Source of the DNA: a virus
Virus record (IMG/VR): IMGVR_UViG_3300047388_000216
Span: 1-39,603 of that record
Reading direction: 5' to 3' (one strand)
Length of the DNA: 39,603 bases
Shown here piece by piece: positions 1,796 to 39,334 of the stretch (position 1 is the stretch's first letter; each line of letters starts with the position of its first letter). Both the position numbers and the translations under genes were made by a program. The notes below the pieces were generated by a model. The model was given only the letters and a program-made list of their open reading frames with translations. It was not told where the DNA came from and made no database searches.

Positions 1796-2761
1796 ATGGC
1801 TGAGGTCGACACGCATGAGGTGAGACGGCTACGCGCCGAGATCGCACGGCTTCAGGCCGCTGTGGACGCGCTCGCGAAAGTGGCTGGACTGTTCTATACC
1901 GCGGGCCGCGCCGACGGCGGCGCCGGTGCCCACGCCGCGCCGAAACGCAAACGCCCGCCCCGTGACCCTAACCGGGACCGCACCCACCTGTATGTCGTCC
2001 GCGCCTTGATCATCGCCTGCCTCGGTGTGGCGGTCCTCATGGCCGGGCCCATCCCCGTGTTCTCCGTCGACCGGCAGTACCGGTCACCGGGGTTCCAGGC
2101 GCACATCCTCCGTGCGGAACCCCGGCCCCCGGGCCGACGCTGGCAGGACTACCACTTTGTAACACCCGCTCACCAGTGCCCGGCGAACGCCAAGCTCGAG
2201 GCCTGCGAACTCGTCCAGGCTGAGGCCCGCATGGCGGCCGAGGACGCGGGCCTGTGCGCCGGCCCCAGCCAGCTCCCGGATATCGGCGAGCCGCGCGTCG
2301 AGGGAGTCGAGGCGCGCGAGAAGGAGGGGGAGTCGGCCCTTGGTGTGGTCGGCGATCGCGGCCTCGACCTGCTCGCGCTCCTCGGCCAGTGCGCGGAGCT
2401 CAGCAGCCAGCCCCGGCGTGTCCGGCAGGCGCCCGGGGGGGCTGGCGGGGTTGTTCAGACGTTCCACAACGCGGGCCGATACGTACCCGTCGAGCAGAGC
2501 CAGGTCGCGGAACACTTTGCGGCAGCCGTCGCGCAGGCATCCGTACCGCGCGGCCACGTGAACCGGCTTCGCGGTCCATCTCGCTGTGTGCGCGGGCAGC
2601 ACCTGAAGGCCGCGCCCGCACACCCCGCACACCGCCAGGCCGGACAGCAGGTACTTGCGTGCGTTGTGCCCCGCCGGCAGCATGCCGCCGTTGGCCGCGA
2701 GGAGCGCGGTCGCCGCTTCCCACTCGCCGCGGTCGAGGAGGGCGTCCCATGCTGCAGCTGA
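1796..2761 (+). CDS. coiled-coil/membrane protein with doubtful 3' end
   Basis: The start is well supported by GGGAGGGG ten bases before ATG 1796. Residues 1-25 form a short coiled coil (VRRLRAEIARLQAAVDAL). A basic linker follows, and residues 65-90 form one hydrophobic span (YVVRALIIACLGVAVLMAG). After that the frame stays open to 2761, but from 2084 onward it runs antisense to the integrase and looks like noise. The real protein probably ends near 2084-2250, or its original 3' end was lost by recombination. Its function is unknown. Confidence 0.5.
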   Translation: MAEVDTHEVRRLRAEIARLQAAVDALAKVAGLFYTAGRADGGAGAHAAPKRKRPPRDPNRDRTHLYVVRALIIACLGVAVLMAGPIPVFSVDRQYRSPGFQAHILRAEPRPPGRRWQDYHFVTPAHQCPANAKLEACELVQAEARMAAEDAGLCAGPSQLPDIGEPRVEGVEAREKEGESALGVVGDRGLDLLALLGQCAELSSQPRRVRQAPGGAGGVVQTFHNAGRYVPVEQSQVAEHFAAAVAQASVPRGHVNRLRGPSRCVRGQHLKAAPAHPAHRQAGQQVLACVVPRRQHAAVGREERGRRFPLAAVEEGVPCCS

Positions 2762-3502
2762 GGTGCCGCCGGGCATCAGGCCGGCATAGCGGGGATTGGC
2801 GAGCATGCGGCGGATGGCCAGCGGATGCATCGGCTTGCCCGCGGTGGTGGTGACGCCGCGGGCGGCCAGACCCGCGGCGATGTGGCGGACGGAGTTCCCG
2901 GCGAGGATCGCGGCGGTCACCTCGCGGACGATCGCCGCCTCCTTGGGGACGTGGGTGACGCCGTCCTTCTCAAACCCGAACAGCCTGCCACCGCGCCCGC
3001 CGGTAGTGACGATGCCGGCGCGGCGCCTGCGGGCGTGGCCCGTCTTCATCCGCCGGGAGGTGTCGTCGGATTCTTTGCAGGCGACGTCGGTGAGGATGCG
3101 GAGGACGAACCGGTCGTCGTGGTTGTCGAGGTCGCGGTCGCCGGTGGGGCTGGCGATCCTGAGGCCACGGCCGTCGGCGAGCTTGATGAGGTGGTTGAGG
3201 TCGAACGGCTGCCGGACGAGACGGTCGCCGTGGTAGACGACGATCGCGGCGAGCTTCCCGGCGTCGACGTCGGTGAGCATCTGGTCCCACGCGGGCCGTT
3301 TGGTGTTTTTCTTCCACGCGGATTTGCTGTTGTCGGTGTAGACGCCGTTGGGGTCGGGGTAGCCGCAGCCGGTGACTGGTTCCCATCCGCGCTGGCGGAG
3401 GAGTTCGCGGCAGATGCGTTCCTGCTCGTCGACTTTGGTGGTGTCGCCGTCGCGGGCGAGGGACAGCCGGCAGTAGATACCGGCCGTGATCGGTTTAGTC
3501 AC
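2084..3502 (-). CDS. large serine recombinase (phage integrase), 472 aa
   Basis: This protein catalyses site-specific integration between attP and attB through a serine-DNA intermediate. Residues 8-150 are the resolvase domain with YCRLS and nucleophile Ser14. Residues 165-270 are the recombinase domain (RLFGFEKDG, then IAAGLAARGVTTTAGKP). Cys292, Cys295, Cys322 and Cys327 form the zinc ribbon. Residues 364-416 are the coiled-coil part that controls synapsis. The length is normal for the family. Its start overlaps the 64-aa gene by 8 bases. Excision should require a separate directionality factor, which I cannot identify. Confidence 0.95.
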   Translation of the reverse strand: MTKPITAGIYCRLSLARDGDTTKVDEQERICRELLRQRGWEPVTGCGYPDPNGVYTDNSKSAWKKNTKRPAWDQMLTDVDAGKLAAIVVYHGDRLVRQPFDLNHLIKLADGRGLRIASPTGDRDLDNHDDRFVLRILTDVACKESDDTSRRMKTGHARRRRAGIVTTGGRGGRLFGFEKDGVTHVPKEAAIVREVTAAILAGNSVRHIAAGLAARGVTTTAGKPMHPLAIRRMLANPRYAGLMPGGTSAAAWDALLDRGEWEAATALLAANGGMLPAGHNARKYLLSGLAVCGVCGRGLQVLPAHTARWTAKPVHVAARYGCLRDGCRKVFRDLALLDGYVSARVVERLNNPASPPGRLPDTPGLAAELRALAEEREQVEAAIADHTKGRLPLLLARLDSLDARLADIRELAGAGAQARVLGRHAGLSLDEFAGLELGVRRALVSGCYKVVVLPASARGPGFRTEDVRLEPR

Positions 3503-4441: not shown

Positions 4442-4864
4442 TCATTCCTTCCCCCTGACGAACGTCCCCTTGCCCCACAGCGTCTCGATGAGCCCCCGCT
4501 CCCGCAGCTCCTTCATCGCGCGCCGGGCCGTCGAGTAGGCGACGCCGTACTCCTCGGCGATGGCCTGCTCTGGTGGCAGCTTGTCCCCCGGCCGCAGCTC
4601 GCCGGTTTCGATCTGGCCGGCGATCGCCTCTGCGACCCGCATGTATTCCAGCACGCCGCGCTTGCCCCACGTGCCGGTCCGCTTGTGCTCGGCGCGATGG
4701 CACTCGCCGCACAGGACGATGATCTCTAGCGCCTTGCTGGGGTCGGGGTGGTGCCGTTCCAGCCGTTTGGTGGCTGAGCAGTGCTCGCACGCCGTGAGGA
4801 CGCGGTGGGCGCGGCGTGCCCTTTGCCGGGCCGCGTTCATGGCCAGCGTCTCCGTGGCGGTCAC
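4442..4864 (-). CDS. HNH-like zinc domain fused to GntR DNA-binding domain, 140 aa
   Basis: The N-terminal part carries Cys26 and Cys29 (CEHC), His38-His39 (RLERHHPD), then Cys52, Cys55, His56 and His60 (LCGECHRAEH), the layout of an HNH nuclease zinc fold. Residues 73-138 are a GntR winged helix (GDKLPPEQAIAEEYGVAYST, then GLIETLWGKGTFVRG). A GntR domain normally joins a ligand-binding domain at its C-terminus, so this order is unusual. The GTG start is coupled (GTGA) to the 50-aa gene. It may be a KorSA-like repressor, with or without nuclease activity. Confidence 0.8.
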   Translation of the reverse strand: MTATETLAMNAARQRARRAHRVLTACEHCSATKRLERHHPDPSKALEIIVLCGECHRAEHKRTGTWGKRGVLEYMRVAEAIAGQIETGELRPGDKLPPEQAIAEEYGVAYSTARRAMKELRERGLIETLWGKGTFVRGKE

Positions 4865-5013
4865 TTCGGCACCGCAGCCTTGGTGCCCTTAACGGTGCCG
4901 CACCAGTGGCCTTCCCAGGCACCGACATGACAGTAACCAGGGCACGCCGACCCGCCGCATCGGCATGGCTGGATCAGTCGACCGCAATGCAGGCACTTCA
5001 TGCTCTTAGCCAT
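4861..5013 (-). CDS. cysteine-rich small protein, 50 aa
   Basis: The product begins MAKSMKCLHCGRLIQPCRCG and has seven cysteines, including CLHC and CRC, which suggests zinc binding. AAGGAG lies 5 bases before ATG 5013, which decides the start. It overlaps the stop of the GntR gene upstream by 8 bases and couples by GTGA to the HNH-GntR gene downstream. It is sandwiched between two regulators, so it may share their role. No family is recognised. Confidence 0.65.
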   Translation of the reverse strand: MAKSMKCLHCGRLIQPCRCGGSACPGYCHVGAWEGHWCGTVKGTKAAVPK

Positions 5014-5254
5014 CTCGCTCCTTGGTGACGAATGTGCCGCGGCCCTGCACCGTGTAGACGGCGCCCTCGTCGACGAGGACGCGGATGGCGCGGCGGATCG
5101 TCTCAACCGCGAGCCCGGTCTCCCGGACCAGTGCCTGCAGCGACGGGATCTTGCGGCCAGGCCCGTATTCGCCGGCGTCGATCGCGGCGCGGAGCTGGTC
5201 CGCTACCTGCCGGTACGGGAACACGTCCGACTCATGATCAATTTGCACCTGCAC
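5006..5254 (-). CDS. GntR-family repressor, KorSA-like, 82 aa
   Basis: This is a minimal GntR protein: almost the whole length is the winged helix (FPYRQVADQLRAAIDAGEYG, KIPSLQALVRETGLAVETIR, then GAVYTVQGRGTFVT). There is no effector-binding domain. Short GntR proteins of this kind (KorSA in pSAM2) silence transfer and integration genes in actinomycete elements. It diverges from the transfer operon starting at 5350, with overlapping promoter-like sequences between them, which is the expected position for such a repressor. The GTG start at 5254 is preferred. Confidence 0.85.
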   Translation of the reverse strand: MQVQIDHESDVFPYRQVADQLRAAIDAGEYGPGRKIPSLQALVRETGLAVETIRRAIRVLVDEGAVYTVQGRGTFVTKERDG

Positions 5255-5750: not shown

Positions 5751-6290
5751 ATGAACCGTACAAGGCGCATCCGCCGCGCCGCTGGCGTGACCATGGCCGC
5801 GTTCGCGCTCATCGCCGCCGTCATCTCCTACAGCGACGGGCTGCTCCTTATCCGCCTCGCTGGTGTGACCGGGCGCATGGCCTACCTGTATCCGCTGCTG
5901 CCGGATGGGCTGATCGTCATCTCGTCGCTGTCGCTGTATGAGACAGCGGTGACGGGTGCGCCGAGGTCGCGGTGGGCGATGGCGGGAATCTTCCTCGGCG
6001 CGGGTTTGACGGTGGCGATGAACGTGGCGGCCGGGTGGTCGGTTTCGCCGCTGCTGGCAGTGGCGGACGGGTTCGTGCCGGTGGTGTTCTTCGTCGCTCT
6101 GGAGATCCTGATCGGGCTGATCCGCCGTGGCCGCGTAGCCGTACCCGTCCGCGTACCCGTGGCACGCCGGGAAGGGGTACGGGAGATCCGCGCCAAGCAC
6201 AAGGTGAGCTCGGCGACCGCAACCAAGATGCGGGACTACGCCACCGCGCAAGTCAAGGCCGCCAGCAACGGCCACGGAGGCGAGTCGTGA
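5751..6290 (+). CDS. DUF2637 membrane protein, 179 aa
   Basis: Four hydrophobic spans fill residues 10-125 (for example AAFALIAAVISYSDGLLLI and PLLPDGLIVISSLSLYETA), the hallmark of DUF2637. A cytoplasmic basic tail follows, with REGVREIRAKHKVSSATATK. Such proteins are almost always found beside TraB/FtsK genes in Streptomyces plasmids and integrative elements, where they count as spread or transfer-assisting proteins. It overlaps the next gene by GTGA. The biochemical role is unknown. Confidence 0.85.
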   Translation: MNRTRRIRRAAGVTMAAFALIAAVISYSDGLLLIRLAGVTGRMAYLYPLLPDGLIVISSLSLYETAVTGAPRSRWAMAGIFLGAGLTVAMNVAAGWSVSPLLAVADGFVPVVFFVALEILIGLIRRGRVAVPVRVPVARREGVREIRAKHKVSSATATKMRDYATAQVKAASNGHGGES

Positions 6291-6415
6291 TGCACTGGCT
6301 TATTCTCGCGGGCCTGGTTGCTGTCTTCATTGCCGCCGGGCGCTGGGCTGGGCGGCCGGGACGCGTCTGGAAGCGGACGGTGCGCCAGTGGCAGGGACGC
6401 GATCCCCATGAGTGA
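6287..6415 (+). CDS. single-span membrane protein, 42 aa
   Basis: This starts at GTG 6287 (GTGA overlap) or ATG 6290. The product has one transmembrane helix (HWLILAGLVAVFIAAGRWAG) and a basic tail (VWKRTVRQWQGRDP). It lies between DUF2637 and the TraB-like gene and overlaps the latter by 8 bases, so it is co-translated with the translocase and may be an accessory Spd-type protein. No family is recognised. Confidence 0.6.
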   Translation: MMHWLILAGLVAVFIAAGRWAGRPGRVWKRTVRQWQGRDPHE

Positions 6416-8492
6416 CCCCACCGACCGGCCGCCGCGGCACCTGGTGGCCATCCCAGACGAACTGCCCCCGCCGAAACCGGCGGTCTATGACACCTCCTAT
6501 GAGGTGGCGCTGGACGAGGAGCCATCCGGGGAGGTGGTGCCGGTTGACCCGGAGCCGCCGCGGGGTGAGCTGCTGCCGGTCATCCCCGCGCACCTGCAGA
6601 CCCTCGCCGGGGTGCAGGCGGCGGTCGCGCACTGGGGCGGCAGGCAGTTGCACCGGGCGAAGTATCACGGGATCCGTTCACCCAGGTACCTGCTGCTGGC
6701 GCTGTTCTGGGCGGTGGTCGGTGGCCTGCGGCTGGTGAGCCGGTGGCTGCGCTGGTGGCTGTTCCCCGTGCCCGTGTCGGTGCATCTTGATGCGGCGACG
6801 GGAGGCCACCGGGACTGGATGACGGTCCACCGCGAGCATAAGAAGACGGCGGTGGCGCGGGCGAAGATCACCGCCGCCGTCCTGGCGCCGGTGCTGGTGG
6901 GTGGCGTCTTGCTGTGGGAACTCGTCCCCTGGTGGATGTGGCTCCCCCCGCTGGTGGCGGTGTGCGTGGCACTCCTCGCCCGCGCTGGGCACCCGAAGGA
7001 CAAGCCGATCCTGCGCCCGGCCACGATCACCCCGAGGTTCCGGGTGCTGAACGCCGACATCGTCCTCCGCGCCTACTATGCGGCGAAACTTGGCGACCCG
7101 GAGAAGGACGGGCAGCAGGTCACGTTCGGCGGCAGGCCGATGCGCACAGACGGTGCAGGCAGTGGCGTGGACGTTGACCTGCCCTACGGCAAGGGCCTCA
7201 ACGACGCGGTCGACGCGAAGCCGAAAATCGCGTCGGGGCTGGATGTGCAGGTCAGCCAGGTGTTCCTCCACCGTGACCCGACATCACACCGCCGCCATTA
7301 TCTATGGGTGGCTGACCGTGACCCGCTGGCCGTGCCGGTGGGGAAGACGCCGCTGCTCGCCTGCCGGCAAACCGACATCTGGAAGCCTGCGCCCCTTGGC
7401 CTCGACGAACGCGGGAAGCTGGTCACGCTGCTGCTGCTGTGGTCGTCGGTGCTGGTCGGTGCGCTGCCCCGGCAGGGGAAGTCGTGGACGGCGCGGGCGC
7501 TCGCCCTGTTCTGCGCGCTCGACCCGCATGTGAAGCTGGATGTGTTCGACGCGGCGGGGAAACCGGACTGGCGGAAGTTCGCGCTGGTCGCGGACTCGTA
7601 TGCGTTCGGGACCACGCCGACCCGTGATGGGCTGCCGCCGGAGATCCTGCTCGCCACATTGAAGCGGATCAAGGAAGATGTGCAGGACCGGTACAACCGG
7701 CTGTCTGACCTGCCCACCAGTGTGTGCCCGGAGGGGAAGCTGACCCGGCAGATCGCCCGCGACCCCCGGTATGGGATGCCGGTGCGGGTGCTGGTGCTGG
7801 ACGAGTTCCAGGAGTACTACGACCTGGGGAAGATCTCGACCGAGATCGCGGAGGGTTTGCGGTTCCTGGTGAAGGTCGCCCCCGCCGCCGGGGTGATCCC
7901 CATCTGGGCGACGCAGAAACCGGCGGGCATCGGCGGGACGGGGAACCTGTCCACGATGTTCAACGCGACCCGCGACAACTTCGTGGTCAGGTTCGCGCTG
8001 CGCACCGCGTCATACACCGTGTCGGAGGCGGTGCTGGGCCAGGGCACCACCAGCATGGACCTGGATTCCTCCAAGCTGCTGCCGCAGTACAAGGGTGTCG
8101 GGATCCTGCATGGCGCGACGGATGCGTCGCCGACGGTGCGGTGTTACAGCGCGAACGACACCGACGCTGAGCGGATCCTGCTCGCCGCGCGGGCGCTGCG
8201 GGAGAAGGCCGGGACACTCGACGGCATGGCCGCCGGGGTGACGGTGGACAAGCCCGTCAGGGACGTCCTGGCCGACGTGCTGTCCGTGTTCGGCGGCAAC
8301 ACGGGGCTGCAGTGGCAGCAGCTCGCGGAGCGGCTCGAGCGGCATTTCCCCGACCGGTACGCCGACGTCACGGCTGATGCGATCTCGGCGCAGTTGCGTG
8401 ACCTGAAGGTGCCGTCGCGGGATGTGAAGTTCGTGGGCCGCAACCTGAAGGGGTGTTACCGGGAGGACGTAGAGGCGGTAGCGGCCCAGTGA
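6408..8492 (+). CDS. TraB/FtsK-family DNA translocase (pSAM2 TraSA type), 694 aa
   Basis: This is a hexameric double-stranded-DNA pump of the kind that moves whole plasmids between actinomycete hyphae. The N-terminal third has hydrophobic spans (LLALFWAVVGGLRLV and AVLAPVLVGGVLLWELV) that anchor it in the membrane. The motor domain has Walker A GALPRQGKS (residues 351-359) and Walker B VLVLDEFQEYY (Asp465, Glu466). The last 60 residues (LQWQQLAERLERHFP to KGCYREDV) look like a winged helix, which in TraB proteins reads clt repeats. The length is typical. A cluster of GGTAGCGG repeats begins within its last codons. Confidence 0.9.
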   Translation: MSDPTDRPPRHLVAIPDELPPPKPAVYDTSYEVALDEEPSGEVVPVDPEPPRGELLPVIPAHLQTLAGVQAAVAHWGGRQLHRAKYHGIRSPRYLLLALFWAVVGGLRLVSRWLRWWLFPVPVSVHLDAATGGHRDWMTVHREHKKTAVARAKITAAVLAPVLVGGVLLWELVPWWMWLPPLVAVCVALLARAGHPKDKPILRPATITPRFRVLNADIVLRAYYAAKLGDPEKDGQQVTFGGRPMRTDGAGSGVDVDLPYGKGLNDAVDAKPKIASGLDVQVSQVFLHRDPTSHRRHYLWVADRDPLAVPVGKTPLLACRQTDIWKPAPLGLDERGKLVTLLLLWSSVLVGALPRQGKSWTARALALFCALDPHVKLDVFDAAGKPDWRKFALVADSYAFGTTPTRDGLPPEILLATLKRIKEDVQDRYNRLSDLPTSVCPEGKLTRQIARDPRYGMPVRVLVLDEFQEYYDLGKISTEIAEGLRFLVKVAPAAGVIPIWATQKPAGIGGTGNLSTMFNATRDNFVVRFALRTASYTVSEAVLGQGTTSMDLDSSKLLPQYKGVGILHGATDASPTVRCYSANDTDAERILLAARALREKAGTLDGMAAGVTVDKPVRDVLADVLSVFGGNTGLQWQQLAERLERHFPDRYADVTADAISAQLRDLKVPSRDVKFVGRNLKGCYREDVEAVAAQ

Positions 8493-8600
8493 GCAGGCAG
8501 CCCGCTACCCGCTACCGCGCAGGTCGGCAGGTAGCGGCGGTAGCGGCCATCGGAGTTTATGCAGGTCAAAGCGAGTAGCGCGAACGCTACCTGGTAGCGG
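8477..8600. repeat. clt-like cluster of GGTAGCGG 8-mers
   Basis: Six exact copies of GGTAGCGG or its complement lie at 8477-8484 (+), 8502-8509 (-), 8509-8516 (-), 8530-8537 (+), 8539-8546 (+) and 8593-8600 (+). Near copies lie at 8574-8581 (+) and 8584-8591 (-). The last pair makes a 15-base palindrome, CGCTACCTGGTAGCG. TraB proteins of Streptomyces plasmids bind 8-base TRS repeats in the clt locus near traB, so this is the best candidate transfer origin. Iterons of a replication origin are the alternative. Confidence 0.7.
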
Positions 8601-8613
8601 CTAGGAGAAGGCA

Positions 8614-33497: not shown

Positions 33498-34976
33498 TCA
33501 CGAGTTCGCGACGAGGAGGCGGAACCCAGCGGTGTTGCTGGAATCGGAACCTATCCGTGCGTAGGCGAACCAGCCGCGCTGTCCCGTCGGGACCGCAGGC
33601 CCCGAGCCCGCAGTGACCTGCTGGAACAGCTGCGGCACGAGCTCCACCGACATGCCGCCGTTGCGGGCGACGACAAAGTTGGCGAAGTCGCCGACGATCG
33701 CCTGCCCCTCCGCCGTGGTCGTCCACGTGGTCGTGTCGGGCATGTACGCCGACTCGTACACGGGCCGGTTGAACAACTGGTCGGCCCAGCCTTCGGGCAG
33801 GTTGACGGTGTAGCCGTGGAACACGTTCGCGGCGCCGATCTGCCGGATCGCGTTGTTCACACCCACACTCATCAGCCAGGACGCGTTGCGGCGGTACTTC
33901 TGCGGCAGCGCCTTCCACACCAGGTACGGGTCCGGGGCGCCGATCGTGCCGCCGGTGGTGACCTTCACCCGGTCACCCGCGACCGCGGAGATCGCGGTGA
34001 GGATGCCCTTCGGCTCGTTCGTGCCGGAGCCGATGGTGAACTTCTGCACCAGCAGCTCGTCGTAGCCCTGCGCCAGCAGCGTGGACATCTCCGACGCGAA
34101 CCCGGGGTAGTCCATCCCGACCTCAATCGAGTAGGGGATGAACCCGCGGGCCATGTGGACGAGGACGGCGGGCTGCGCCAGCACCGGGCTGTTGTCGGTG
34201 ACGGCGGCGGCTTCAGTCTGGAACGCCCACGTCACACCAGCGGAGGAGACGCCCTTCCACTGGTTCGTATTAACGGTCACTTGTTTTGCAATTGCCAGGA
34301 ATGGATTGCCGCTTTCCTGGGCGGTTAGGATAATGGACGGATCTATGAATACAGGTATGCCGAACCCGCCCGCTGTGGTCGTCCAGTCACCCAGCGCACG
34401 GAACTCGTACCACGCCTGCACCGCCCGGTTCTCCTCCGGGGACAGCACCGGATGCGGGTCGGTGACCATCTTCATCCACGCCGACCGGTAGTCCTCGTTC
34501 TCGGTGACGAGGAGCCGCCGGGCGGTGACATGGTCGCGGCGGACCCACTTGTCGACCTGCGTCTTCTGCGCATCGGACAGTTCGGATGCGTCGCGGGAGT
34601 CGAGGATCCGCAGCGCCCGGTCCCGCGCCTCAGTGTTCGTCATCCGCCGCGTGTCGCCGGCGGGGTCGTCGAGGCCGTAGCGGATGTTCGCGTACGCCTG
34701 CTGCACCTGCTCGGGACGGCGGCGGAACACCTCGCTGATCTTGCGGTGCTCCTCGAGCCGGTTCAGGATCTCCTCCCGCATCTGCAGGCCGAGGTCGAAC
34801 GCGCCCTGCTCGGCGTCGTCGAGGTCGCGGATCTCCCCGTCGTCGGTCTGATGCAGCGACTTCAGGTGCGCGTCGAGGACCTCGAACAGTTGCCGCAGCT
34901 CGTCGGGGGTGCGGCCCCGCAGGTCGTCCATGCTGCCGGGGAGGAAGTCCGCCCGGTTCTCATCGGTGGTGGTCAT
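33498..34976 (-). CDS. HK97-fold major capsid protein, 492 aa
   Basis: The first 160 residues are a long coiled-coil delta domain (ELRQLFEVLDAHLKSLHQTD, EQVQQAYANIRYGL), removed by the protease during maturation. From about 190 the HK97 fold begins (WTTTAGGFGIPVFIDPSII) and continues with KQVTVNTNQWKG, DELLVQKFTIGSGTNEPKGI and FVVARNGGMSVELVPQLFQQ. The length fits the T = 7 type siphovirus capsids. A stretch of AT-rich codons lies at 34266-34360. ATG overlaps the protease stop (ATGA). Confidence 0.95.
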   Translation of the reverse strand: MTTTDENRADFLPGSMDDLRGRTPDELRQLFEVLDAHLKSLHQTDDGEIRDLDDAEQGAFDLGLQMREEILNRLEEHRKISEVFRRRPEQVQQAYANIRYGLDDPAGDTRRMTNTEARDRALRILDSRDASELSDAQKTQVDKWVRRDHVTARRLLVTENEDYRSAWMKMVTDPHPVLSPEENRAVQAWYEFRALGDWTTTAGGFGIPVFIDPSIILTAQESGNPFLAIAKQVTVNTNQWKGVSSAGVTWAFQTEAAAVTDNSPVLAQPAVLVHMARGFIPYSIEVGMDYPGFASEMSTLLAQGYDELLVQKFTIGSGTNEPKGILTAISAVAGDRVKVTTGGTIGAPDPYLVWKALPQKYRRNASWLMSVGVNNAIRQIGAANVFHGYTVNLPEGWADQLFNRPVYESAYMPDTTTWTTTAEGQAIVGDFANFVVARNGGMSVELVPQLFQQVTAGSGPAVPTGQRGWFAYARIGSDSSNTAGFRLLVANS

Positions 34977-36163
34977 GTGGGTTGTCTCCTCATGCGCCAG
35001 GCCCTGTCACGCAGGGCCGCTCTGTTGACAGGTGACGTCCCGCCGTTTTCCTGGCGCACGTCCATGCGCTCACCGCCGGGGGCGCTCCACGCGCCGTCCC
35101 GCCCGGTGAAGTCTGCTGGCAGGCCGGCCGACCGCACCGCGTCCTCGAACGCGGGGGCGTCCACCTGCTGTAGCCGGTGATAGAACTCGTCAGTCCCGGA
35201 GCGGATCCCCGACGTCGCGCCCTGGTTCGCGGGGAACGTCACCGGCCCGAACTCCGGCACCTTCATGCGGGTGATCGTCCGCTCCGGGATCCCGTCCGGG
35301 TTCATGTCCGAGCGTGCGGGTTCGTCGTCCCACGTGTCGCCGGTGACCCGCATCCGCATCGACGCCCCGTACACGCCGGCCTTCAGGCCCGGCAGCAGGT
35401 CCCGGTTGTAGGACGTGTCGAACAGCGGCACCTCATAATGCGGGCCGTCGCTGCGCTCGGTCAGCGAGTCGATCGGGCCGAGAACCTTGTTCCCGATCTG
35501 GGCGTCCATCCCGTGGTCGAACAGGACCCGCATCGCGTCAAGGTCGTCGCGGATCGTGTCCACCGTCGCGCCCGGGGCGACGCGTTCCATGAAGTCGCCC
35601 TCGAACCGGGACGACACCTTGTACCAGCGGCCGAACTCGGAGAACCGGCCGGTCAGGACACCCAGCGACCCGTCCGGCGACTCATCCGCAGACCGCAGCT
35701 CCATGAGTTCGCCGGATCGCACCACATCCAGATCAGGGGCGAAGTGCGCGGCGTTCGACTGGCTGACGGTGATCCCGAACTTCTTGCACGCCGCCATGAT
35801 CCGCGCCTTCACCGACGCGAGGGTGACCCCGTTGAGCGGGTATTTCGCCGCGTTCTTCGGCATCGAGATGTACGAAAGGGCCGCTTTCGCGTGCGCGGCC
35901 GTGTCGATGGGGTACTTGCCGTTCTTCGGGTCCGCGTAGGCGACGCTGCCGTACGGCTTCGGGCCCCGGGCCGGGAGATCCAGTGGGGTCGCCGACAGCG
36001 CGGTCATAGCACCGGCGGGGTCGTTCTGCAGCAGCCCATCCATGTCGTCCTGCGCGGACTGCTGGTCCACATGGCAGCGCAGCACCTTCCCGTCGCCGTC
36101 CTTCAGGACTGCCCACGGCCGCGCTATGGGGCAGCCGTCGGACTTCGCAACGTGGTAGCTCAT
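34973..36163 (-). CDS. HK97-type prohead protease with N-terminal DUF6582-like domain, 396 aa
   Basis: Residues 70-130 (YGSVAYADPKNGKYPIDTAA, KYPLNGVTLASVKARI) match the DUF6582 type domain often fused to phage proteases. The peptidase core begins near 147 (VRSGELMELRSA) with a GRFSEFGRWYKV strand, His217 (MRVLFDHGMD) and Ser268 (VYGASMRMRV). It would cleave the capsid delta domain and itself. It precedes the capsid gene in the normal order. The substrate-side tail is Gly/Arg-rich. Confidence 0.9.
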   Translation of the reverse strand: MSYHVAKSDGCPIARPWAVLKDGDGKVLRCHVDQQSAQDDMDGLLQNDPAGAMTALSATPLDLPARGPKPYGSVAYADPKNGKYPIDTAAHAKAALSYISMPKNAAKYPLNGVTLASVKARIMAACKKFGITVSQSNAAHFAPDLDVVRSGELMELRSADESPDGSLGVLTGRFSEFGRWYKVSSRFEGDFMERVAPGATVDTIRDDLDAMRVLFDHGMDAQIGNKVLGPIDSLTERSDGPHYEVPLFDTSYNRDLLPGLKAGVYGASMRMRVTGDTWDDEPARSDMNPDGIPERTITRMKVPEFGPVTFPANQGATSGIRSGTDEFYHRLQQVDAPAFEDAVRSAGLPADFTGRDGAWSAPGGERMDVRQENGGTSPVNRAALRDRAWRMRRQPT

Positions 36164-36164
36164 G

Positions 36165-37601
36165 TCAGCCTCCTGCGGCCTTCCCGTTCACTGCCGGCAC
36201 TGGGACGGGTGCCCCGGCTGGCTGGCTGGGACTCACCGCCCCAGGCTCCGGCTTACGCGGGGACTCGGCACCCGGCTCCCAAAGCTGCACCGACACGAGC
36301 CCTGTGTGCTTCAGCAGCGAGATGTCCTGCCCGCGGACCGCCGCGACCGCCGACTCCGGCGTGAACCCGTCCTTCACATAACCGCTGATCGTCGCCTGCT
36401 TGACCGCCTCAATGTCGGCGGCGTCCTTCGCGTCCTCCCGCAGGATCGGCATGTCGTCCGTGCTGAACCACAACTCAGAATCCGGGGGCACCGTGGTGAT
36501 TGACGCCAGCGACGACGCCACATCCTGCAACGCCGGATACACCCACGTGTCAGAGAAGATCCGGCGGGTCATCGCCAGGTTCCCCGCGTTCAGGCTGGAA
36601 CCACTCAAGCCCTTCGAGATCCCCAGCAAAGCCGCCGGCACCCGGGACAGGACCGCGATCCTCGTCTCCGTCGCGCCCTGCAGATTCTCCAGATCCAGGT
36701 CCCGCAGGTTCGACCCGATCACGCTCGCGTCCGCGCCCGCTGTCAGATACAGCGTCCGGTACGCGTTCGCCACACCCGCGTGCCGGTCTTCCATCTCGTT
36801 GACCAGTTCCTCGAACTGGGTCCGCGACACCGCCGGAACACCTTTGACCACCAGGTTCGGTGTCGCGCCCTGCCCGAAATACCGGATCTTATGCTCGGTG
36901 CCGAGCCGGTCCAGTTGCAGTTCCCGGATCGCCGGCGTCAGCCACGACATGCCCAAACCGGCCATCTCCGGATCCGGGATCGGGCTCCAATGCGCCACCT
37001 CGTCCGGGAGCAGGATGTGCGGGTCCTCCGTCCCCCGGTTCCGGTACACGTAGCAGAGCAGTTCCGCGTCGATAGCACCCGACGCGAAGTCAGGTTCGAG
37101 CTGCGACCCGTACAGGATCGCCGTCCAGTCCGGCCGCAGCACCCGCAACCTGCCCGGCTGCCGCAGCACGTACGCGTTGCCCGCCAGCCCAGCGTCCCAT
37201 TCCATCCGGGACAGCAGATCCCCCGTCGTGCCGTTCGGCCACGGTGTTTCCAGCAGCGCCAGATCCCGGTTCCCGAACGTCCGCCGCGGCGTGCTCGCGG
37301 ACATCCGGTTCCGGAACGTGAACCTGGCCTGCGACAAAACGAGCGACCGGACCATCTGCGCGGCGAACGCAGGAGGGCACGCCTGCAACGCCATCCGGTA
37401 CCCCGGAATCGAGTTGGCGATCTCCGCGACCCGGTTCCCCGCGAGGGTCTGCGGCAGCCCCTGCCCGAGCGGGTACGTCACATTCCCGTACGCGAACGTC
37501 CCCGCCGACGGGATCAGGTACTGGCTGATCCACGTGTCGATCGAGAACCGGGACTCGTCACCGCGGGCCGCCGCGTTAACCCGTTCGAGCAGGCCCGCCA
37601 C
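36165..37601 (-). CDS. portal protein (HK97 family), 478 aa
   Basis: Residues 30-200 show portal features (PSAGTFAYGNVTYPLG, VRSLVLSQARFTF, WDAGLAGNAYVLRQPGR). The core helix region contains LGTEHKIRYFGQGATPNLVV and the following FEELVNEMEDRHAGVANAYR. The clip/crown part is Pro-rich at the end. It forms the dodecameric gate for DNA packaging. The GTG start overlaps the 74-aa gene by 26 bases. Confidence 0.93.
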   Translation of the reverse strand: MAGLLERVNAAARGDESRFSIDTWISQYLIPSAGTFAYGNVTYPLGQGLPQTLAGNRVAEIANSIPGYRMALQACPPAFAAQMVRSLVLSQARFTFRNRMSASTPRRTFGNRDLALLETPWPNGTTGDLLSRMEWDAGLAGNAYVLRQPGRLRVLRPDWTAILYGSQLEPDFASGAIDAELLCYVYRNRGTEDPHILLPDEVAHWSPIPDPEMAGLGMSWLTPAIRELQLDRLGTEHKIRYFGQGATPNLVVKGVPAVSRTQFEELVNEMEDRHAGVANAYRTLYLTAGADASVIGSNLRDLDLENLQGATETRIAVLSRVPAALLGISKGLSGSSLNAGNLAMTRRIFSDTWVYPALQDVASSLASITTVPPDSELWFSTDDMPILREDAKDAADIEAVKQATISGYVKDGFTPESAVAAVRGQDISLLKHTGLVSVQLWEPGAESPRKPEPGAVSPSQPAGAPVPVPAVNGKAAGG

Positions 37602-37800
37602 GAGCCGCTCCCGCCTGCCAGCCGACCTTCACCGCGACCGCGCACCACGCCACACCCAGGAACAACCGGCCCGCCATCCACCCCAGGCCGAAGAACACGG
37701 CGGCGATCAGCGTCAGCAGCAGGTGGCCGAACCTGACCTGGCGGGCCTGCGCGGTGATCTCATCCAGCGGGATGCGTTCAGCGATGCTGGTCACCGGCAC
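37576..37800 (-). CDS. small membrane protein between terminase and portal, 74 aa
   Basis: The product has a short head (IAERIPLDEITAQARQVRFG) and two hydrophobic spans (LLLTLIAAVFFGLGWMAGRL and LGVAWCAVAVKVGWQAG). The same type of protein occurs between terminase and portal genes in many Streptomyces prophages; its role is unknown. The start codon is GTG at 37800. Confidence 0.75.
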   Translation of the reverse strand: MPVTSIAERIPLDEITAQARQVRFGHLLLTLIAAVFFGLGWMAGRLFLGVAWCAVAVKVGWQAGAARGGPARTG

Positions 37801-37813
37801 CGGTCTCCCTCGC

Positions 37814-39334
37814 TCATCGTTGCGCCATGAAGAACGGCACCTGGTTCACACCGTGCGTCGCATGCCCATGCCGCGCCAAAGTCACCGCCTCAAGCGGGCT
37901 GATGTCCGCCGGCGAATGCTTCCACGACCACGCCCACGCATCCGCCAGCGGACGGGTCCGCGCACCCTCAACCGCCGCATCAACCGGAGACGGCCCCGGA
38001 TACCGCCACCGGTCATTGACCACGTCATCGCCGAGAGCGCCGCACGCGTGCGCGTACTCCCGCGCCCCCACGATCTGCAGCCTGCGCTCACCCGGGCCCG
38101 GCTTCACACTGAACCGGTGCTCCACCAGCTCAGCCTCAAAATCACCCGCAGCGCCCGCCGGGTTGATCACCAGCACACACGGGTCAAGCGACTCCACCAG
38201 CTCGAGCACCCGCGGCATCAGCCACGCCGTACCCGGCCGGTGATCGGCCAGTTCCCCATGCCCCAGCCCATCAGCGCGGCGGCCAGCCACGGCAATCGCC
38301 GCAGACGACCCGCCAGGCGCCACCGCGAACCCCAGAGCGACCGGGTCCAGCACCTGCGACCCCGGATCGGCGCACGCCGCCCAGTTGCTGAAATCCGCGA
38401 GATCCGCCACCTGCCCCGACAGATCCGGCACATTCCCGTAGGCGCGGGCGAACTCCTCCGCCTCCATCGACAGCCGCTCCCCGCGGACCGCATCCAGCGT
38501 CACAGTGTGCCGCCACGCCCCGCCACCACAGCGGCACGGCGGATCCGGGCACAACGCCGGCATAAACCCGAAATACGACTCCTCGTCAGCCGGATCCCAC
38601 CCATCCGGCGCCGAATACTCGATGTAAGCGACCCCGCGGCCCGTGTCCGCCTTCACCGCAGCCCGGCCAGCCGCAACCTTACGGGCCAGCACCACAGACT
38701 CCGCCGTCCCCGCCGTCGAACACACCAGGATCTGCGCATCCTCAACCGTGATCATCGCCGGGCGCAGGCCCTGCTCACGGCGGCTGTCCTTGTCATGCCA
38801 CACCTCATCAAGCACCGCCTGATGAAGCGTCTTCGAATGCCCAGACGACGTCGACGTGGACAGCAGCCGGATCAGCGACCCGTTGGCGAACCGGATGTAC
38901 TCGTTCCCCATGCCCTCATAGATCCGCGCCACCAGCGGTCGCAGCTTCCGCGACCGGCGGATCAGCGGGAACAGCTCATCCAGCCACTTGTCCCGCGCGT
39001 CCTTCCCCGACTGCGCCGTGAACGCCGACCGCTGCGGCTGCGCCCACCGCGGCGACGTACACCGGTTGATCTGCCACGTCAGGTACAGCGTCGTCTTCCC
39101 CGACTGTCGCGGGACAGTGACGATCACCTCCCGGTACGCCGGGCGGCCAGTGTCCGGGTCGATCTCACACCCGACCTCGGCCGCGTCATGCTGCCACGGC
39201 ATGAACGGCTGCCCCAGCGCCGCCGCGATCCGCGCCAGCTCCGGGCCGAACGTCTTCCGCTCAGGCCGGCGGCGAGTCGCCCACTTCGGCGAACAGGTTG
39301 CCGACGGCCTCATCGAAACCGCCGTCACTGTCAT
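37814..39334 (-). CDS. terminase large subunit, 506 aa
   Basis: This is the ATP-driven packaging motor with nuclease. Walker A is VPRQSGKT (74-81), Walker B is VLDEVW (Asp176, Glu177), and motif III is CSTAGT (205-210). The nuclease half has FAVAPGGSS (336-344), LVINPAGAAG and DAWAWSWK, where the acidic positions are partly changed compared with relatives. ATG 39334 or 39313 could be the start; both overlap the small subunit gene. Cys-rich CPDPPCRCGGG near 262 is a normal insertion in this subgroup. Confidence 0.92.
   Translation of the reverse strand: MTVTAVSMRPSATCSPKWATRRRPERKTFGPELARIAAALGQPFMPWQHDAAEVGCEIDPDTGRPAYREVIVTVPRQSGKTTLYLTWQINRCTSPRWAQPQRSAFTAQSGKDARDKWLDELFPLIRRSRKLRPLVARIYEGMGNEYIRFANGSLIRLLSTSTSSGHSKTLHQAVLDEVWHDKDSRREQGLRPAMITVEDAQILVCSTAGTAESVVLARKVAAGRAAVKADTGRGVAYIEYSAPDGWDPADEESYFGFMPALCPDPPCRCGGGAWRHTVTLDAVRGERLSMEAEEFARAYGNVPDLSGQVADLADFSNWAACADPGSQVLDPVALGFAVAPGGSSAAIAVAGRRADGLGHGELADHRPGTAWLMPRVLELVESLDPCVLVINPAGAAGDFEAELVEHRFSVKPGPGERRLQIVGAREYAHACGALGDDVVNDRWRYPGPSPVDAAVEGARTRPLADAWAWSWKHSPADISPLEAVTLARHGHATHGVNQVPFFMAQR

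Follow-up and report, generated by a model that had tools for sequence, protein, structure and literature searches.

The window analysed here, the complete 39,603-nt viral record IMGVR_UViG_3300047388_000216, carries on its left side genes for a serine recombinase, HTH and GntR regulators, a DUF2637 protein and an FtsK-family translocase, and a cluster of short repeated words stands at the end of the translocase gene (Table 1). The minus strand encodes a tail protein besides the large terminase, portal, protease and major capsid protein. The joint presence of these genes in a single record gives the element the gene content of a temperate tailed phage. Two GntR-type regulators are encoded on the minus strand, the other one at about 5005-5250; the one listed in Table 1 has a Cys/His-rich, HNH-like N-terminus fused to its GntR part.

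Table 1. Features of the window, by position, and repeat words found behind traB in its relatives.
Feature	Position	Strand	Basis or carriers
Large serine recombinase, integrase candidate	2084-3502	-	PF00239, PF07508
GntR-type regulator with HNH-like N-terminus; possible KorA/KorSA-like control of the module	4442-4864	-	PF00392, E 2e-18
DUF2637 membrane protein, SpdB2-type partner, directly upstream of traB	5751-6290	+	PF10935, E 1e-6
traB-like FtsK-family translocase, 694 aa from ATG 6408; open frame from TTG 6318	6408-8492	+	phrog_1358, tblastn, AlphaFold2 model
Codon of wing residue N679, best TraB column for base 4 of the repeat word	8442-8444	+	column scan; wing strands in model
Repeat cluster, proposed clt / TraB loading site	8477-8600		six exact and one single-mismatch copies; same place behind traB in relatives
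Word copy 1, GGTAGCGG, within the last traB codons	8477-8484	+	exact match
Word copy 2, GGTAGCGG	8502-8509	-	exact match
Word copy 3, GGTAGCGG, sharing one base with copy 2	8509-8516	-	exact match
Variant constant word, plus-strand reading GCAGGTCG	8519-8526	-	sequence; relatives
Word copy 4, GGTAGCGG	8530-8537	+	exact match
Word copy 5, GGTAGCGG	8539-8546	+	exact match
Constant clt word TGACCTGCATAAAC, with TGACCTGC core at 8561-8568	8555-8568	-	sequence; relatives
Word copy 6, GGTAGCGT, single mismatch	8584-8591	-	near match
Word copy 7, GGTAGCGG, head to head with copy 6	8593-8600	+	exact match
Phage packaging and head genes: capsid, protease, portal, large terminase	33498-39334	-	phrog_10, phrog_80, phrog_12, phrog_9
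Lineage word GGTAGCGG or GGTAGCGC	behind traB		window-clade relatives
Lineage word GGTCGCGG	behind traB		L002, L015, L032 group, L043
Lineage word GGATCGCG	behind traB		L001, L011
Lineage word TGCAGCGG	behind traB		L013
Lineage word GTGTAGCG	behind traB		L123, L132, L133
Lineage word CGCGGCAC	behind traB		L060, L153
Lineage word GCGGAACG	behind traB		L019

The translocase matches phrog_1358 (FtsK/SpoIIIE-like; E 4e-15) and, by tblastn, plasmid FtsK/TraB proteins including that of pSVH1. Its sequence contains the motor motifs GALPRQGKS (Walker A) and VLVLDE (Walker B), and its AlphaFold2 model (mean pLDDT 76) superposes on the FtsK motor with a Z-score of 28.6 over 352 residues (Foldseek E 8.5e-16) and on the conjugation coupling protein TcpA with a Z-score of 28.4. 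Long hydrophobic helices, read as membrane segments from sequence and models, form the N-terminus. Modelled alone, the C-terminal domain is a winged helix (pLDDT about 90) with a recognition helix at residues 656-665 and wing strands at 671-675 and 678-684. As modelled, the product of 6408-8492 is thus an FtsK-type motor that is anchored in the membrane and carries a winged helix at its C-terminus. Among curated family models, the protein has no Pfam or NCBIfam match, and a relative (L043) meets NF041214 plasmid_TraB at E 1e-4, far under its cut-off. With the C-terminal domain as query, a sequence-profile search of solved structures returned chance matches only, and a fold search returned many winged-helix proteins, none of them outstanding, with FtsK gamma not among the matches listed. 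We call the protein TraB-like because of its fold, its gene order and the clt-like sequence behind it.

The word GGTAGCGG occurs nine times exactly in the window against 1.36 expected, a count reached in 0 of 100 shuffles. Only three of these copies lie outside the cluster (at 1290, 5200 and 10143), so that the word is not spread through the element. Given the outside rate, at least six copies per 124 bp have a Poisson p of about 1e-15, or about 4e-11 once every start position is allowed for, and none of 200 local shuffles of 8471-8605 matched the cluster. Copy 1 starts 16 bp before the end of traB, whose stop codon is at 8490-8492. A preliminary description of this DNA had reported six exact and two near copies, in both orientations, within 124 bases from the last translocase codons onwards. 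The extent, the mixed orientation, the six exact copies and one of the near copies are borne out; the second near copy, AGTAGCGC at 8574-8581, differs from the word at two positions. The 15-base palindrome that had been placed at 8586-8600 also exists, one base further left, at 8585-8599 (CGCTACC-T-GGTAGCG), where two words stand head to head around a 1-bp spacer.

Repeat words and a constant word in relatives and known plasmids

Relatives were sought in contigs, both viral and genomic, and in whole genomes from the order to which the L007 host, Actinomadura, belongs; we take this order to be the Streptosporangiales. The search gave 79 distinct TraB relatives in the clade of the window, and about 50 others fell into a second clade at a greater distance. 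In most of the window's clade a single 8-mer, in mixed orientation, is clustered right after the traB stop codon, and 55 of the 79 relatives have one word in at least four copies just behind traB. These words have a density of 13.0 per kb inside the clusters versus 0.23 per kb outside (57-fold). The place of the cluster behind traB is fixed across phage, plasmid and chromosomal elements, and all copies in a cluster change together from lineage to lineage (Table 1). The closest relatives, L001 and L011, lack GGTAGCGG and have a cluster of their own in the same place (0 of 200 shuffles, counted with 7-mers); what is conserved is therefore the cluster and its place, not the 8-mer, and the conservation in close relatives on which the preliminary description had staked its reading applies in this form. 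No cluster follows the TraB-like gene in the viral records L017 and L021. Among the 55 relatives with a repeated word, 23 contain head-to-head pairs within 0-2 bp and 33 contain direct pairs at close range, with an overlap of one or two bases or a spacing of at most 1 bp. Mixed orientation is therefore normal for the family, and the inverted arrangement in the window is not the oddity it had been taken for.

In L052, L032, L036 and others, the gene after the clt-like sequence often starts with Ala-Ala-Thr-Ala-Thr codons that repeat the element's own clt word (CCGCTACCGCTACC or CCGCGACCGCGACC), so that the cluster seems to reach into coding sequence on both sides. The second TraB clade of the same order (L070-L121) has candidate words of its own behind traB, some of them CTAG-cored (GTCTAGAG, CTAGCGGC).

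Between the repeats stands a constant word, TGACCTGC, often followed by GCAAAC. Its degenerate core, TGA[CT]C[TA]GC, is present within 200 bp after the traB stop in 55 of the 79 relatives versus 1.5 expected from shuffles; control stretches gave 8 within traB and 1 further downstream. The constant word recurs at +145 to +148 in five pSVH1-type plasmids (pSVH1 itself, L004, and L203-L206), and pIJ101 (L207) has TGACCTGCG at 6887, between a GntR-type regulator gene (6031-6756) and a gene at 6966-7208. The exact 14-mer TGACCTGCGCAAAC has at least 64 matches in 121 Streptosporangiales genomes versus 1 for the reversed control. These genomic copies are mostly intergenic and away from traB, and we dropped the 14-mer as a marker of clt loci only, given its genome-wide enrichment in the order.

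The same blind word counting procedure recovered GACCCGGA five times directly behind the traB of pSVH1, a word that we take to be its published TRS. The pSVH1 clt resembles the cluster in the window in that a single 8-mer is clustered directly behind traB in mixed orientation, with a TGACCTGCGCAAAC word beside the cluster and an SpdB2 gene ahead of traB. It differs in the word itself, in its carrier, a plasmid, and in its TraB, which is about 28% identical to that of the window over the motor. Clusters of other words occupy the same place in pFP11, pSTS2 and two other pSVH1 relatives, and in related plasmids the gene ahead of traB is annotated as DUF2637, as in the window.

In pWTY27, the clt spans the final 16 bp of traA plus the 159 bp that follow, contains direct and inverted repeats and, by experiment, is bound by TraA and needed for transfer; separate iterons of 7-8 bp are also present (PMC3583192). 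It starts 16 bp before the end of the tra gene, as the first word does in the window, whereas its 7-bp word, TGACACC, is that of a theta plasmid and its carrier is a 14-kb plasmid. The clt of pIJ101 is a short repeat-rich locus that is required, together with a single Tra protein, for transfer (PMC3583192). Unlike the cluster in the window, it lies near korB and not directly behind tra, although the constant word is again found in the korB region. KOPS of E. coli are 8-bp words read by the C-terminal winged helix of FtsK, FtsK gamma (PMC2680272), but they are spread and oriented along the chromosome, whereas the word in the window is clustered in one place and its three scattered outside copies do not form a KOPS-like guide. 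AICEs of the pSAM2 type combine TraB-type single-protein transfer with an integrase (PMC3218068). The element in the window does not class as an AICE: it carries virion genes for head and tail as well as packaging genes, and the proteins scanned include no AICE replication protein of the RepSA, RepAM or PrimPol type. A nucleotide search of plasmids with the clt-like sequence of the window returned nothing useful. The reading as a clt, put forward in the preliminary description on account of clustering, place and a word particular to each lineage, is supported by this sequence comparison with known clt loci, which the cluster matches in its mixed orientation as well.

Covariation of the word with the wing of TraB

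Within the clade, words differ most commonly at base 4 of GGT[A/C]GCG. We labelled 57 elements by this base as A (40) or C (17), with labels defined after the words had been seen, and placed them on a tree built from the TraB core with the winged helix left out. The label changes 10 times on this tree, at least seven of them on well supported branches. A pattern in the wing residues was first spotted by eye, and all 696 alignable TraB columns were scanned afterwards. The column of N679, in the wing, is the best predictor of base 4 among the 696 (balanced accuracy 0.963), and all seven independent pairs on supported branches agree with it (7/7, p 0.016). Ranked by pair score, the column that comes next has 4.5, with the 95th percentile at 2.8. 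In accuracy, the adjoining residue, 678, comes second. With A-type words, the column holds V (21), T (11), N (4), K (3) or R (1); with C-type words, it holds A (14), S (1) or K with a two-residue insertion (2), and the two proteins of the last kind fit the A/C rule only via that insertion. The GGTAACG words of L042 and L161 fall outside the rule.

Since the 3' end of traB is linked with the neighbouring clt-like sequence, part of the covariation could arise from linkage. However, columns of the C-terminal tail, which lie nearer the repeats, predict base 4 less well than the wing, which argues against mere linkage. In L068 and L069, which belong to one genome, 303 of 307 aligned core residues are equal and the helix, wing and tail differ; the word is GGTCGCGG in L068 and GGTAGCGG in L069. 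We had also considered that the recognition helix alone (SAQ versus SAE) sets the word, and dropped this idea, given that the pairs L043/L050 and L064/L044 have nearly the same helix and different words. Taken together, these correlations suggest that the word follows TraB, with base 4 tied to a wing residue of the C-terminal winged helix; the co-variation between repeat and translocase proposed as a check at the outset is thereby found in the sequences.

In a held-out set from another order, the new full-length regions gave GGTAAC-type words only and no new A/C words. A TraB group of that kind (L125, L212, L219 and relatives, of another order) has the wing G-Q-V-Q-K-G together with GGTAAC-type words, suggesting that the residue after the N679 position may bear on position 5 of the word.

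A candidate transfer locus on a phage genome

Several lines of evidence concern the carriers of this module. The same terminase family is encoded in 8 of 16 related viral records, and a ninth has a capsid gene. In an isolate of [Actinomadura] parvosata, a single large contig carries traB and, at a distance of 20 kb, a terminase gene. Chromosomal carriers other than this one mostly have no such terminase near traB, and the module is therefore common to phages and non-phage elements. Among 50,697 deposited phage genomes, we found no match to this TraB, and in the literature searched no paper describes a TraB/clt module on a phage; mob and oriT genes of phage-plasmids are noted in a review (PMC11652158). 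A 42-kb circular record of Pseudonocardia alni, pPaSha2 (L006, CP052773.1), encodes a terminase, portal, capsid, DUF2637 protein and a TraB of this type and is likely a phage-plasmid carrying a transfer gene. Its clt-like stretch is suggestive, without statistical support.

We consider it highly probable, as the best explanation of the whole, that the cluster is a clt or TraB loading site from which TraB and its SpdB2-type partner would move double-stranded phage DNA onward. Several TraB subunits would bind the words via recognition helix and wing and would seed a hexameric motor at the cluster on excised or extrachromosomal phage DNA. TraB and the SpdB2-type DUF2637 protein could then pump phage DNA, double-stranded and intact, into an adjacent compartment or cell, giving the phage two routes, virions and conjugation-like transfer. 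Binding by TraB, hexamer loading and transfer of unprocessed double-stranded DNA are modelled here on pSVH1, pIJ101 and pWTY27.

The words could instead be TraB sites of a pump that serves its own host only, at mycelial septa, in spores or in the upkeep of an episomal prophage, with no transfer between cells. TraB does resemble the FtsK/SpoIIIE family, whose members move DNA across septa of one cell or mycelium, and virions already carry phages from cell to cell. Against this, the layout of the module is that of conjugative plasmids, down to the SpdB2-type partner and the constant clt word, and the words form a local cluster, unlike FtsK guide sites; we regard a role confined to the host as unlikely. 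A decayed remnant, that is, a plasmid transfer module captured by a prophage and now out of use, is conceivable to the extent that, within the same order, many elements other than phages have TraB and clt-like sequences, so that a recent capture is possible. Yet traB is intact, the word copies are kept exact, and both traB and the cluster are retained by several different phage records, and we hold decay to be quite improbable.

Iterons and operators, too, typically show 8-mers repeated in both orientations ahead of small genes, and pWTY27 has iterons of similar size apart from its clt (PMC3583192), so that the cluster might be a replication origin, or an operator for the downstream genes, standing behind traB by an accident of gene order. 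Such an accident accords poorly with a place that is fixed behind traB in phages, plasmids and chromosomal elements alike and with a word that follows a TraB residue, and no replication initiator was seen adjoining the cluster in the window; we think this very improbable. The location in a phage genome would also suit a packaging (pac) site or a start site for head filling, but about 29 kb separate the cluster from the large terminase gene, and genomes that lack this terminase family have such clusters in their chromosomal elements too, which leaves this explanation scarcely credible.

What is less usual about this clt-like locus is its vehicle, a phage genome, a point absent from the preliminary description. 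Our broader proposal is tentative, and we would place it slightly on the doubtful side: there may be a recurring class of actinobacterial temperate phages that carry a complete TraB/clt module and are transmitted both as virions and by conjugation-like transfer of double-stranded DNA. The word would be set in part by one wing residue (V, T or N giving A, and A or S giving C, at position 4), such that a locus could be re-addressed by a point mutation and a homogenised change of all its clt repeats. The many natural clt words with their matching TraBs make a TraB recognition code testable by single substitutions. The same set of words and proteins also offers a means of finding clt loci in AICEs; for pSAM2, no clt motif has been described (PMC9513070). 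Virion transfer and conjugation are generally regarded as distinct routes, and both would serve a phage whose clt works. Such dual-route transfer could suit mycelial hosts, and mating may be a further means of spread for some viruses of filamentous bacteria.
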